Shown here piece by piece: positions 2,780 to 25,083 of a DNA stretch of 34,227 nucleotides. A model generated the notes under the pieces. The model searched no databases and had not been told where the DNA came from. It was given only the letters and a program-made list of their open reading frames with translations. Origin of the DNA: Raineya orbicola (GTDB lineage Bacteria > Bacteroidota > Bacteroidia > Cytophagales > Thermonemataceae). The position numbers and the translations under genes are program-made. The stretch spans positions 1-34,227 of the forward strand of contig NZ_NKXO01000038.1 of the NCBI RefSeq assembly GCF_002843425.1. Reading direction: 5' to 3'. The stretch's first letter is position 1, and every line of letters begins with the position of its first letter.

Positions 2780-3658
2780 TTATTCCAAAACCATAAGCCC
2801 CCAATTGGCAATAAGCGAAAGAATAATACCGATATATTGCCATTGGGTTAATTTTTCTTTGTAGATAAATAAACCTATTGCCAAAGGAATGGTGTCGCCT
2901 GTTACTCGTATTATCAGCAAAGAAGATAGCGGCACAAGTAGATAGGAAAGATTGCTAAAATATACGCCTAATGCTCCTAAAAAGGCTATTAACAGCAAAA
3001 ACAGAAAACTCTTGCCCGAAAGAGCAAAAACTTGGGTAAGTTTTCTTTGCCAAAATAGTTGAAATCCACTGACACATAAAATTGTCAGTTCTAAAACAAA
3101 GCCAAATTGCGAAGGTCCTAATTTTTCAGTAGCTTCTTTGAAAAAAGCATAACTGATTGTCCAAAAAATACTCGCTAAAACTGCAAATAGTATGCCTTGG
3201 CGTTGTAGTTTAGCTCTTTCCGAACTCGCCTTTAAGGCAATAAGCAAAGAAGCAAAAAAAGAAATACCAAATAAAATAGCTTTTTGCCATACAAATGGCT
3301 CTTTATAGTAGATAATACTCCACCAAAAATGAAAAACACTTTTCAAAACTAAAAATCTTCCAATGAGGCTCAAAGGCAAATATTGCTGTGATTTTACAAA
3401 AAAATACAAACCCCAATACGAAATAAAAGATATTAGTACCGAAAAAATTACATCTTGCCAAGAAAAATGGTAATTTTCTTGCATAACCCAAGCCACAATT
3501 CCTAAAAAAGCAGTAGTCCATAAGTTGCGAATAAAAATCCCTTTCTCTGCTGAAACTTCTCGTAAGGGTACTTTCCAAAGCGAATCGGCAATAGCGAAAG
3601 CAAAATGAACAATCACTACACTGGTAAGTGCAATTACTTCAGGCTTCATAAATTTCAA
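2780..3658 (-). CDS. EamA-family (DMT superfamily) transporter
   Basis: This 292-residue protein has about ten hydrophobic segments arranged as two tandem five-helix halves, as in EamA/DMT permeases. Each half ends with the usual pattern of a basic/aromatic turn before the last helix, for example KEPFVWQKAILFGISFFASLLIAL and YKEKLTQWQYIGIILSLIANWGL. Such proteins export or exchange small metabolites across the inner membrane; the substrate cannot be predicted. It is divergent from nuoN, which starts 61 bases away. ATG at 3658 is used here; ATG at 3649 is an equally possible start. The gene ends almost against the stop of the convergent gene at 2775, with no terminator between them. Confidence 0.85.
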   Translation of the reverse strand: MKFMKPEVIALTSVVIVHFAFAIADSLWKVPLREVSAEKGIFIRNLWTTAFLGIVAWVMQENYHFSWQDVIFSVLISFISYWGLYFFVKSQQYLPLSLIGRFLVLKSVFHFWWSIIYYKEPFVWQKAILFGISFFASLLIALKASSERAKLQRQGILFAVLASIFWTISYAFFKEATEKLGPSQFGFVLELTILCVSGFQLFWQRKLTQVFALSGKSFLFLLLIAFLGALGVYFSNLSYLLVPLSSLLIIRVTGDTIPLAIGLFIYKEKLTQWQYIGIILSLIANWGLMVLE

Positions 3659-3719
3659 TCTTGAATTTTGCTTTTTGCCTCAAAATGCAGATTTTTGCTT
3701 GAAATTACAAACGTTTTCA

Positions 3720-5174: not shown

Positions 5175-8100
5175 ATGACCGAGGAGATACTCAAAGCCCT
5201 AATGCAGTTATTTGGTATTACGGCTTCTTTGGAAGGAACACAACCCACTTATAGAAATTTAGTAGAAAATTTTTTGCAAGAGCATCTCAGCCCCGAACAG
5301 GTGCATAAATACTTGCTTATTTTTGAAGAGTTTTCTAAACTTCGCACCGTAGAAACAGACGATAGTGGCTTAAAACTTACAAGCACGCGTATTTCTTCGC
5401 GTATGCTCGTGATATGCACGCGTATCAATCAGGAACTTACTCAACAGCAAAAACTTGTTGCTCTTATCAAAATGGTTGAACTTATCGCCGCCGATGGCGA
5501 AATTAGCCCTAATGAATGGGAGTTTATTCATACGGTTGCCTCTATTTTTAATTTTGAGCAAAGAGAAGTAGAAAATTTTATCAATTTTATTACGATTGAT
5601 TACATTGAAAAGCATTTCCTTGAAAATACGCTTTACATTACCCCCTTTGCCAATATTCATTATGCATACCATTTACATCAGCCTCATTTGCAGGGCTTTA
5701 TGCTTATTCTGCGAGTTCCAAACCTTGAAACCTATCTTTTCAAATATATTGGTGAGCAAGATTACTATCTGAACGGCTTTTTGCTCAGAAGCGGTCATAT
5801 TTATTTCCTTTCACCGGGCAGTGTTATCCGAGGAGGACGCATAGAGGCAATTTATTACAGCGATATTGTTAGCATTTTCCGAAAAACCAAACAAGAGCAA
5901 AGAATTTACTTGGAAGCAAAGCGTGTAACACATCTTTTTGCAAGCAAAAAAAATGGTATTCGGGAAATTAGCTTTGCTGAAAGCGGAGGCAAACTCTTGG
6001 GCATAATGGGAGAAAGTGGAGCAGGCAAATCTACTCTTTTAGAAGTACTTAATGGAAACTTGAAACCCCATAGTGGCAAGGTGCTTATCAATGGGCGTAA
6101 CGTACATCAAGAAAAATTAGAGGGTATTATCGGTTATGTTCCGCAAGATGATTTACTGATTGAGCATTTAAGCGTTTATGATAACTTGTACTATGCGGCA
6201 AAATTGAGTTTAGGCAATCAAAATGAAGCACAAGTTCAGGCAAGTGTAGAGGAGATTTTGAGAGATTTGGGCTTGCAAGAAGTTGCTCACTTACAAGTAG
6301 GCTCGCCTCTGGAAAGAACCATTAGCGGTGGGCAAAGAAAACGCTTGAATATTGGTTTGGAGCTATTACGCAAGCCTGCCATTCTTTTTGTTGATGAACC
6401 TACTTCGGGGCTTTCCTCTCGCGATTCAGAAAATATTATGGATTTGCTCAAAGAACTTGCTCTGGAAGGCAAACTCGTGGTAGTAGTGATTCATCAGCCT
6501 TCGGCAACTATTTTCAAAATGTTTGATAAATTGCTCATATTAGATACAGGTGGCTATCCGATTTATTATGGCAGTCCTATTGATGCAGTGCCTTATTTTC
6601 GCAAGCACGCAAGGCAGGTGAGTCGTAGCCAAGGCGAATGTGGCGAATGTGGTAATATTGATGTAGGGCAAATTTTTGATATTATTTCCGCAAAAATCGT
6701 TAATGAATACGGACGCTTTACAGAGAAGCGAAAAATTTCACCTCAACAATGGTACGAAATTTATCAAAAAGAACAGGAAAGTCAAGCCAAAAATGAAATT
6801 CCCATTCAAGCCGAAATTATTAACCAACGCATTCAATCCCCCAACCGAATTAGGCAATGGTGGATATTTTTGAAAAGAGATTTGAAAAACAAAGTAAATC
6901 ATTCTCAATACTTGCTTGTCAATTTGTTACAAGCACCCCTTTTAGCTTTTGGTTTGGCATATGTAAATCGCTATCACGAGCCCAACAAGCCTTATACATT
7001 TGGCGAGAATGAAAATATTCCTGCATATATTTTTATTGCTATCATTGTAGCTCTTTTTTCGGGATTGGTAGGAAGTGCCGAACAGATTATCAGCGATAGG
7101 AAAATTCTGAAAAGAGAGGCTTTTTTACATTTGAGTCGTAATAGCTATTTGCTTGCCAAAGTGGCGGTGCTTTTTATGCTTTCTTTTGTACAAACACTGG
7201 CTTTGGTATGGATAGGTAATGGCATCTTGGAAATTCGTGGAATGGCTTTGGAGTATTTTGTAGTGCTTTTTTCTTGCTCGGCTTTTGCCAATGTTTTGGG
7301 GCTGTTGATTTCAGATGCATTCAAATCCGCAGTAACGGTCTATATTCTGATACCTTTGTTGCTTATTCCTCAACTCGTTTTGGGCGGTATCGTAATTCGT
7401 TTTGATAAAGTAAATCCAGACTTTAAATTTTCTGCCCAAGACCATATTCCTTGGTTTTCGGAGTTTTTGGCTTCTCGGTGGGCTTTTGAAGCTCTGATGG
7501 TGGTACAATTCAAGGAAAACGCCTACGAAAAACCCTTGTACCCTTACGATAAAATTATTGCTACTGCCGAATACAAAAAGGTGTTTTATTTGCCCGAGTT
7601 GCAAAAACTTTTAGATAAAGCCCGAAGTAATCCATATCAGTCGGGGCATATTTTTTGGCTTATTCGTAATGAACTTACCAAAGAATTAGAAAAGATAGAT
7701 AGAAAAGAAATTCCAACGCTTTATGCTCTTACCGAGGCTAAAAATATTGCAGGTACTTACAGCCAAATTGAAAAGATTTTCAAAAATATCAGAAAATATT
7801 ACAAACAAGAGCAACAAACTGCTACAAAAGACAAAGATGATTTTTTACGAAAAAATCCTGCCCATCAGAACCTTCGGCAGAGGTATCATAACGAAGCGGT
7901 AGCTCGTTTGGTAAAACAACTGGATAGCGAGCAGAAATTGGTTGTCCTACAAAAACACATAGAACCCATTGCAAATGCTGTTTATATTGATGCTCAAGAT
8001 GCTTCTGCTCATTTTTTTGCTCCCAATAAAAAATTGGTAGGTGAAACCATAACCACTTTATCTTTCAATTTGGCTGTTTTGTGGATAATGATAATTGTTA

Positions 8101-24316: not shown

Positions 24317-24342
24317 AAGGGTAAATTTTAAGGTTAAACTTG

Positions 24343-24424
24343 TTGCGGAGGTGGGACTCGAACCCACGAGGCTTTCGCAGAGGCTTATGAGACCTCCCGG
24401 CTAACCAACTACCGACACCCCGCA
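24343..24424 (-). tRNA. tRNA-Met (CAU), elongator type
   Basis: This is an 82-nt cloverleaf with acceptor TGCGGGG/CTCCGCA, anticodon stem GAGGT/GCCTC around loop CTCATAA, and T arm GTGGG-TTCGAGT-CCCAC. The variable region, about 12 nt with GC-GAAA-GC, is longer than in usual class I tRNAs. The anticodon stem lacks the three G-C pairs of initiators, so it is not fMet. CCA is not encoded. Confidence 0.9.
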
Positions 24425-24433
24425 ATATGAATT

Positions 24434-24512
24434 TGGTGGAGTTTGGAGGTATTCGAACCTCCGACCGATCGCTTGTAAGGCGACTGCTCTGAACCAACTG
24501 AGCTAAAACTCC
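24434..24512 (-). tRNA. tRNA-Val (UAC)
   Basis: Acceptor GGAGTTT pairs with AAACTCC. The anticodon loop CTTACAA gives anticodon UAC, read for valine GUA/GUG codons. The T arm is GGAGG-TTCGAAT-ACCTCC. Unlike the other tRNAs here, the CCA end appears to be encoded (24436-24434). Confidence 0.93.
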
Positions 24513-24603: not shown

Positions 24604-24745
24604 CTAATTTGAACAAACAAATTATTTAATTTTTAGCAATAACTTACAATCCTAAAAATTGTACTTTTTTAGGTTTTGAATTTTTTACAAAATATTCCCT
24701 TTCAGTCAGAATTTTATATTCTTGCCGACCGGGTAAGTTCAAACA

Positions 24746-24783
24746 AAAAGCCCGAAACTGCTTACTTTGCGTTTCGGGCTTTT
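24746..24783. terminator. Strong bidirectional terminator
   Basis: AAAAGCCCGAAAC (24746-24758) pairs over 13 bp with GTTTCGGGCTTTT (24771-24783). On the minus strand the stem is followed by TTTTTG, ending the small transcript that starts near 24960. Confidence 0.88.
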
Positions 24784-24807
24784 GCTCTGAGTTATATCAA
24801 ATTTGCC

Positions 24808-24939
24808 TTATGTTCTGGTATTTTTTATTTGGCTACAACTCTCTACATACGCCCAAAACGCAGATAAGCGAACAAATTCACGCTTGCCGCTTTCTTGCAT
24901 CTTGTTTTGCATAAATCCATATGTAAAGTAATGTAGCAT
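24808..24939 (-). CDS. 43-residue small protein gene with its own promoter and terminator
   Basis: A short ATG frame of 43 codons lies between a perfect promoter (24967-24998) and a strong terminator (24746-24783), on a predicted transcript of about 215 nt. The product reads MLHYFTYGFMQNKMQES, then GKREFVRLSAFWAYVE, then SCSQIKNTRT: mixed helical, net basic, one Cys, no TM helix or signal peptide. I do not recognise it. The alternative is that the transcript is a non-coding RNA and the frame is chance; third-position changes in relatives would decide this. The unit is separate from the pseudo-nucleotidyltransferase gene upstream and the tRNA operon downstream. Confidence 0.5.
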   Translation of the reverse strand: MLHYFTYGFMQNKMQESGKREFVRLSAFWAYVESCSQIKNTRT

Positions 24940-24966
24940 TGAAGTTTTTACGTTTAATTTTCTTTG

Positions 24967-24998
24967 CAAAGATAAGATGATTTTTTGTACTTTCCAAA
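24967..24998 (-). promoter_or_regulatory. Perfect promoter for a small transcript
   Basis: Minus strand: TTTG (24998-24995), a 20-base spacer, TATCTTTG (24974-24967), an exact match to the Bacteroidota consensus. Transcription would start near 24960, about 20 bases before the ATG of the 43-codon gene. Confidence 0.75.
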
Positions 24999-25083
24999 TA
25001 TTTTTATAAAATTTTTTTGAAAAAAATTAAAAATATTACTTTTTTTGTGTAAAAATTTGATATTCAGCAACTTGTTTTTTGAG

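Follow-up and report, generated by a model that had tools for sequence, protein, structure and literature searches.

The window, by which we mean the whole 34,227-nt stretch of Raineya orbicola DNA analysed here, carries on its minus strand a promoter of the Bacteroidota type, a 43-codon reading frame and a terminator in close succession, followed by three tRNA genes on the same strand (Table 1). The earlier note had described the first three of these elements, and all three stand. The promoter, TTTG-N20-TATCTTTG, has a single match in the window and was present in 4 of 100 shuffles; its looser form, TTTG-N18-22-TAnnTTTG, matches the window 13 times where 2.9 matches are expected, so that boxes of this kind are enriched here, though not unique. 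The frame, which is open in all nine leaders described below, runs from the ATG at 24939 to a TAA at 24808 and would encode MLHYFTYGFMQNKMQESGKREFVRLSAFWAYVESCSQIKNTRT, and the terminator consists of a 13-bp stem (24783-24771 / 24758-24746) and a U-run. The claim that the unit is self-contained did not survive: the first gene of a tRNA-Phe/Val/Met operon lies 142 nt past the U-tract on the same strand, and the unit is better read as the leader of that operon. That it resembles no neighbour is correct within the window and incorrect within the order, where nine genomes carry this leader. Two features go beyond that note, namely the same-strand tRNA operon downstream and a segment of the frame that is complementary to the 5' side of the terminator.

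Table 1. Positions of the features discussed in the text; coordinates refer to the window unless a locus of a relative is named.
Feature	Position	Strand	Basis
Promoter, Bacteroidota type, TTTG-N20-TATCTTTG	24967-24998	minus	sequence motif
Putative leader-peptide ORF, 43 codons, stop between region 2 and terminator	24808-24939	minus	sequence, relatives
Region 1, start of the ORF, predicted to pair with 24851-24832 (hairpin 1:2)	24918-24937	minus	folding
3' arm of hairpin 1:2, predicted partner of region 1	24832-24851	minus	folding
Region 2, candidate antiterminator segment GCGUUUUGGGC	24851-24861	minus	complement of the terminator 5' side; resembles the terminator 3' arm
Region 3, terminator 5' arm	24771-24783	minus	24779-24769 predicted to pair with region 2, reaching 2 nt into the loop
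Region 4, terminator 3' arm and U-run	24741-24758	minus	sequence, folding
Near-palindrome CCTAAAAAAGTACAATTTTTAGG between terminator and first tRNA gene	24651-24674	minus	same place in four family-f1 leaders
tRNA-Phe(GAA), first gene of the operon, sole copy found in the genome	24530-24603	minus	tRNA search
tRNA-Val(UAC)	24434-24512	minus	tRNA search
tRNA with CAU anticodon (called tRNA-Met)	24342-24424	minus	tRNA search, Rfam
Y-RNA-like repeats	L018, about 3373-3490 and 3578-3680; L045, 4424-4560 and 4852-4975
Y-RNA-like repeats	L044, within 4210-3030; L116, within 3605-1580	minus

The 227-nt transcript has a predicted folding energy of -66 kcal/mol, where shuffles average -43.5 (z -6.2), and none of 200 shuffles was equally stable, which places the fold far outside chance. 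Region 2 (24861-24851) and the 5' side of the terminator (24779-24769) form an 11-nt complement with one G-U pair (-20.1 kcal/mol) that was equalled in none of 1000 shuffles. A scan of the window against Rfam gave zero matches to the unit at gathering scores; with E up to 10, positions 24650-25050 gave 13 weak matches, all of which we regard as chance (the best has E 0.0049 and 22.9 bits, with a gathering score of 208). The length of the unit and its stable long hairpin, together with the lack of an RF00013 match in the genome, might suggest a divergent 6S RNA, but the unit has no 6S match even at E up to 10 and its ends are unpaired, and such an RNA would leave both the link to tRNA arrays and the reading frame unexplained; we hold this reading to be extremely improbable. 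Neither RF00013 nor RF01685 was matched, and as RF01685 matched none of the control genomes either, its absence elsewhere says little.

Some further observations concern the surroundings of the unit. The tRNA with the CAU anticodon is about 80 nt long, has a long variable part and scores 32.8 bits, and genes resembling it were seen by eye near the array ends in the relatives G003, G002 and G004. Copies of the near-palindrome occur elsewhere in the order with the stem kept and the ends changed, as CTGAAAA/TTTTCAG (G265) and CTCAAAA/TTTTGAG (G357); the palindrome alone was rejected as a marker of the leader, as it occurs in 45 of 390 genomes, and of 30 loci fetched 29 have no tRNA and one has a tRNA-Met. 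At 1490-1558 the window also holds a DUF805 RNA motif (RF03081, 68.9 bits) 5' of an 86-residue membrane-like ORF.

Leaders of the same kind in related genomes

We found leaders in nine genomes belonging to four genera and three families of the order: G000 (the genome of the window), G003, G002, G004, G031, G046, G111, G052 and G103. The genus-mate G003 has the unit at 74% identity. The layouts in G004 and G002 were found by eye upstream of tRNA genes, and those in G031 and G052, from distant families, were found thereafter. A scan of 22 sources on both strands, for a terminator with an upstream ATG-YT frame and a complementarity of -9 kcal/mol or lower, returned the leaders of the window, G003, G002, G004, G031, G046 and G052 and one further candidate, L123, which was dropped because its locus has no tRNA.

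A first covariance model, R1, made from two sequences, matched just those two in 291 genomes of the order and 8 of the family, and was thus too narrow. A second model, R2, was built on the first part of seven leaders, with the terminator and the tRNA genes both outside the model. Over 34 sources (269 kb) it matched its seven training leaders alone, with zero matches at E up to 1 in the other 27 sources, some of which have tRNA or Y-RNA arrays; many arrays would therefore have no recognisable leader. Among 390 genomes of the order, R2 gave nine matches at E below 1e-3, the seven training leaders plus G103 and G111, both of which have terminator-like hairpins and then tRNA genes, and no match at this threshold lay away from tRNA genes. 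At E up to 1, 19 of the 390 genomes matched, nine of them through the leaders (seven being training sequences), and the remaining ten gave 11 matches (E 0.028-0.97) that were dropped because no tRNA was nearby; these genome counts are to be read as "at least", the first pass having scored 9 candidates per genome. Five of the nine leaders (G004, G002, G031, G046 and G052) came from inspecting tRNA arrays, so that their link to tRNA genes is no test, and the fair test of linkage is the R2 search. The mechanical leader scan of the R2 loci covered the plus strand only and listed neither G111, which lies on the other strand, nor G103, whose stem is mismatched; the terminators of both were read by eye.

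Several other candidates were set aside. Two sequence matches to the unit (L003 and L004) share only the promoter stretch with it and have no tRNA. The pattern ACATATCG-N45-75-TCGGGTAT occurs in 13 of 390 genomes and picks out leaders only in G002 and G004; at 12 other loci with this pattern, 11 have no tRNA and one (L085) has a tRNA on the opposite strand. The arrays at L116, L121 and L125 have a Ro60-like gene in front of them in place of a leader (L116 by Pfam, L121 and L125 by eye). In G001, which is close to the window in the neighbouring gene, the leader and the tRNA block are absent between a nucleotidyltransferase-like gene and tRNA-Met (L014, 5400-5760). No tRNA-Phe match was found in that genome, which makes the missing block uninformative, and it may reflect an assembly gap or a moved operon.

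The nine leaders share a common anatomy. Each frame has 40-50 codons with Leu as the second codon, the stop codon lies 20-34 nt ahead of the terminator arm (arms as typed), the U-tract ends 189-228 nt past the ATG, and the first same-strand tRNA gene, as located with ARAGORN, follows the U-tract at 34-570 nt. The largest gap is that of G031, where tRNA-Gln seems interrupted, and the smallest that of G103, ahead of tRNA-Ile. A terminator-like hairpin and U-run can be read in all nine, with a C-A mismatch in the G103 stem. A -7 box, TAnnTTTG, begins 15-53 nt before the ATG in eight of the nine, and in G002 it has one mismatch. Both G052 (L131, ATG 5027, minus) and G103 (L139, ATG near 1505, plus) have the box beginning 15 nt before the ATG, a spacing at which the leader frames may begin with almost no untranslated region. 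By eye, the tRNA-Gln of G031 seems to be split by some 170 nt of inserted sequence that contains inverted repeats (L119, about 6520-6760); that of G046 is intact by ARAGORN.

A promoter, a stable fold and a strong terminator are also what a free-standing regulatory sRNA of about 200 nt would have, one that acts elsewhere and lies near tRNA genes through inherited synteny. The palindrome between terminator and first tRNA gene in family f1 could then serve a second start site, and in G002 a TAACTTTG box lies behind the terminator, which we also counted against an attenuator, as we did a box AAATTTTG in the short G103 gap, which was read by eye and departs from TAnnTTTG at one position. However, the tRNA genes and their order vary among the leader-bearing genomes, yet the leader stays 5' of them on the same strand in all nine (five found by looking there), G004 has no visible box behind its terminator, and the gap in G103 leaves just 34 nt. 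With the coding and pairing evidence given below, we judge a free-standing sRNA to be unlikely.

Signs of translation in the leader frame

The synonymous test covered three pairs of leaders. Over the first 120 nt of G031 and G046, 4 of 5 changes are synonymous in frame 0 (P 0.008), and between G052 and G103 it is 5 of 7 (P 0.003); frames 1 and 2 of these pairs show no synonymous excess and both hold stops. The third pair, G031 and G111, shows no excess over its 39 nt (3 of 12). A conserved frame with synonymous changes, for which the earlier note had suggested searching relatives, is thus seen in two close pairs, from which we consider the leader frame to be probably translated. The outcome that would have favoured an sRNA in that note, relatives that break the frame and keep the RNA structure, was not found, as the relatives keep both. 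Such coding selection speaks against an RNA acting elsewhere, and it would have no evident use in a leader that merely passed a fixed share of polymerases.

Could the product, some 43 residues long, be a small protein with a function of its own? The open frame and Leu2 in all nine leaders and the synonymous excess would fit, as would the peptides of family f5, which are alike beyond the start; G031, G046 and G111 share NDS-x-V and SGVC-x-C. But in family f1 the peptides are alike only in their first 7-8 residues, save G000 and G003, and the frame in which region 2 is read differs between G000 and G002. The C-terminal end changes from family to family and is shifted behind region 2 in G046 relative to G031, which counts against a protein with its own job; as judged from these sequences, the peptide end is free to change. 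Six leader peptides gave no match above cut-off in Pfam or NCBIfam. Taken together, a functional small protein seems very unlikely to us, and the choice between small protein and sRNA that the earlier note offered was probably put in the wrong form, with relatives keeping both frame and pairings and leaders lying 5' of same-strand tRNA genes.

The RNA appears to carry constraints of its own within the frame. The word ACA-TAT (Thr-Tyr) is kept in seven leaders; at the RNA level G052 and G103 have it too, in a different frame, which suggests that the word weighs more than the residues. Inspection of the ORF showed no stretch of codons specifying a single amino acid, and only Leu2 is kept in all nine; the lack of such a stretch, like the loss of Thr-Tyr in G052 and G103, counts against an attenuator of the class I type.

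Alternative pairings between frame and terminator

In all nine leaders, region 1 is predicted to pair with a segment about 90 nt downstream. With region 1 shuffled, hairpin 1:2 gives P values of 0.004-0.112 (Fisher 1.9e-5 over six lineages), and in the window P = 0.004 against 1000 shuffles. The four family-f1 leaders show two-sided changes, for example C-G for A-U at codon 4 position 3 and U-A for C-G at codon 5 position 1, although these come from separately predicted folds and their count leans to pairing. The 3' arms are of unequal length, for which reason RNAalifold, run on a fixed alignment of these four leaders, found a weak consensus (12 pairs, covariation term 0.19), and pairings were therefore assessed one leader at a time.

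A partner for the 5' arm of the terminator was sought from codon 13 onward, and in all nine leaders the best one lies late in the frame, at the hairpin arm or a few bases before it. The 2:3 match persists where terminators have changed: in the window it is GCGUUUUGGGC/GCCCGAAACGC, in G031 UUCGGGC/GCCCGAA, and in both G052 and G103 region 2 is CUGUGAGGCU, fitting their own terminators AGCCUUACAG and AGCCUCACAG. In G103, whose arm has changed, 2:3 is fully Watson-Crick and the terminator stem itself is mismatched. Shuffle P values for 2:3 are 0.001 in G000, G003, G052 and G103, 0.005 in G046, 0.007 in G031, 0.014 in G111, 0.043 in G002 and 0.345 in G004; eight of nine thus fall below 0.05, and the match in G004 is within chance. 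The Fisher combination is 2.2e-7 over six lineages, whose relatedness makes them less than fully independent, and the terminator arms for this test were typed after the sequences had been read. An earlier shuffle test had given 23/1000 for G002 and 119/1000 for G004. An RNA acting elsewhere need not keep a 2:3 pairing that tracks changes in the terminator, a further point against a free-standing sRNA.

We then consider what a translating ribosome might do to these pairings. With a modelled ribosome at codon 30, 2:3 pairs drop to 0 in all nine leaders, while at codons 2-10 it leaves 6.5-11 of them, again in all nine, which fits slow early translation giving antitermination and fast translation giving termination. 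Four leaders were tried with a ribosome at the stop codon, and in three of them (G000, G003 and G004) 2:3 stayed unblocked, so that termination would need a well-timed ribosome at about codons 28-32. In equilibrium folding of nascent leaders without a ribosome, 2:3 forms in eight of nine (the exception is G002); in the computation, then, what counts is solely whether region 2 is covered, and a leader without translation is not clearly "off". With full-length RNA, G002 and G004 favour the terminator at all ribosome positions tried, and the switch would accordingly have to be kinetic, with folding order and speed deciding.

These results also bear on the idea that the operon leader is a fixed valve or insulator which lets a constant share of polymerases through, the ORF and the alternative pairings having no regulatory effect. 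The switch is a computed one, and the untranslated nascent RNA already favours 2:3 in eight of nine leaders, as this idea would have it. It offers no evident use, however, for an alternative pairing that is kept through sequence change, nor for a stop codon placed 20-34 nt before the terminator arm in every leader, and we find it improbable, somewhat more so than a free-standing sRNA.

Y-RNA-like elements in the arrays

The tRNA arrays of several genomes also hold Y-RNA-like genes. A repeat between the tRNA genes of relatives has the form GTGYCGTA..AAG..TTACTTCG ... TGTTACCTG, with ends that pair, and several of its inserts look, by eye, like tRNAs with the 3' half before the 5' half. Bacterial Y RNAs have a known tRNA-like part. 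The array of G043 lies behind a TROVE/Ro60 gene (Pfam TROVE, 1.3e-25), for which reason the repeats are very probably bacterial Y RNAs. The 5' pattern of the repeat occurs in 15 of 59 genomes of the order, with up to 10 copies in 2 kb, against 0 for a reversed control pattern; it has 0 matches in the genome of the window. At gathering scores, Rfam matched only tRNA in seven array loci.

Discussion

We propose that the unit serves as leader to a tRNA operon and is likely a leader-peptide transcription attenuator. Because relatives keep the open frame together with the RNA pairings, and nine leaders lie 5' of same-strand tRNA genes, an operon leader is the best reading of the locus. Sequence and comparison lend support to its parts, namely the ORF, hairpin 1:2, the 2:3 complementarity, the terminator 3:4, the same-strand tRNA genes and the signs of coding selection. 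Some transcripts would read through into the tRNA genes, and translation may control this read-through.

In such an attenuator, RNA polymerase would make the leader while a ribosome translates the frame of 40-50 codons. A ribosome slowed or held in the first codons would cover region 1 and leave region 2 free to pair with region 3, blocking the terminator so that the tRNA genes are transcribed. A fast ribosome would instead sit on region 2 as region 3 emerges, allowing the 3:4 terminator to form and transcription to stop. The net effect would be negative feedback, in which poor translation, for example with a scarce tRNA, leads to more tRNA output. Given an attenuator, we lean slightly towards this direction of control, from slow early translation to antitermination.

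The supply of tRNA in bacteria is usually matched to demand, it is held, by promoter control and RNA decay. If our proposal is true, an attenuator before tRNA arrays would place the adaptors of translation under the control of translation itself, within one transcript. A broader form of the proposal, in which ribosome speed in a short frame sets the transcription of whole tRNA arrays across the lineage, as a direct negative feedback on tRNA supply that is independent of any single amino acid, is put forward tentatively, at a little under even chances. We know of no case in which tRNA arrays are the target of attenuation in the absence of a run of sensed codons. No leader-peptide attenuator of a tRNA operon was found among the open-licence papers listed, including excerpts of PMC2864571 and PMC5179076, which is weak evidence of absence.

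Among known systems, T-box leaders are alike in making transcription termination depend on the state of tRNA; they differ in binding tRNA directly and in the genes under their control, which are those for synthetases or amino acids. No T-box was found in the window at gathering scores, nor in 24650-25050 at E up to 10 (cmscan). The Bacteroid-trp RNA, which acts by a leader peptide, is likewise a cis-regulatory structured RNA from the same phylum and differs in the genes it regulates. It is listed for Bacteroidetes as Rfam RF01692 in excerpts of PMC2864571. Six of the nine leaders (window, G003, G002, G004, G103 and G111) were scanned against Rfam, with no leader match at gathering scores and no match to RF01692. 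PA5471.1, upstream of the control of MexXY, is a leader peptide that senses drug-stalled ribosomes; leaders of its type resemble ours in that ours, too, would read the general state of translation and not one amino acid, and differ in genes and sequence. Leader-peptide attenuation is classical, and the trp-type (class I) attenuators serve the amino-acid operons trp, his, thr and ilv. They share with the nine leaders a short ORF, the pairings 1:2, 2:3 and 3:4, which are predicted ones in our leaders, and a terminator before the regulated genes on the same strand, whereas the leaders described here have tRNA genes behind them, lack a run of sensed codons, have a longer frame (40-50 codons), and place the stop codon behind region 2, where trp-type leaders have it between regions 1 and 2. 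The layout is thus probably the 1:2 / 2:3 / 3:4 arrangement of trp-type attenuation, here set ahead of tRNA arrays.
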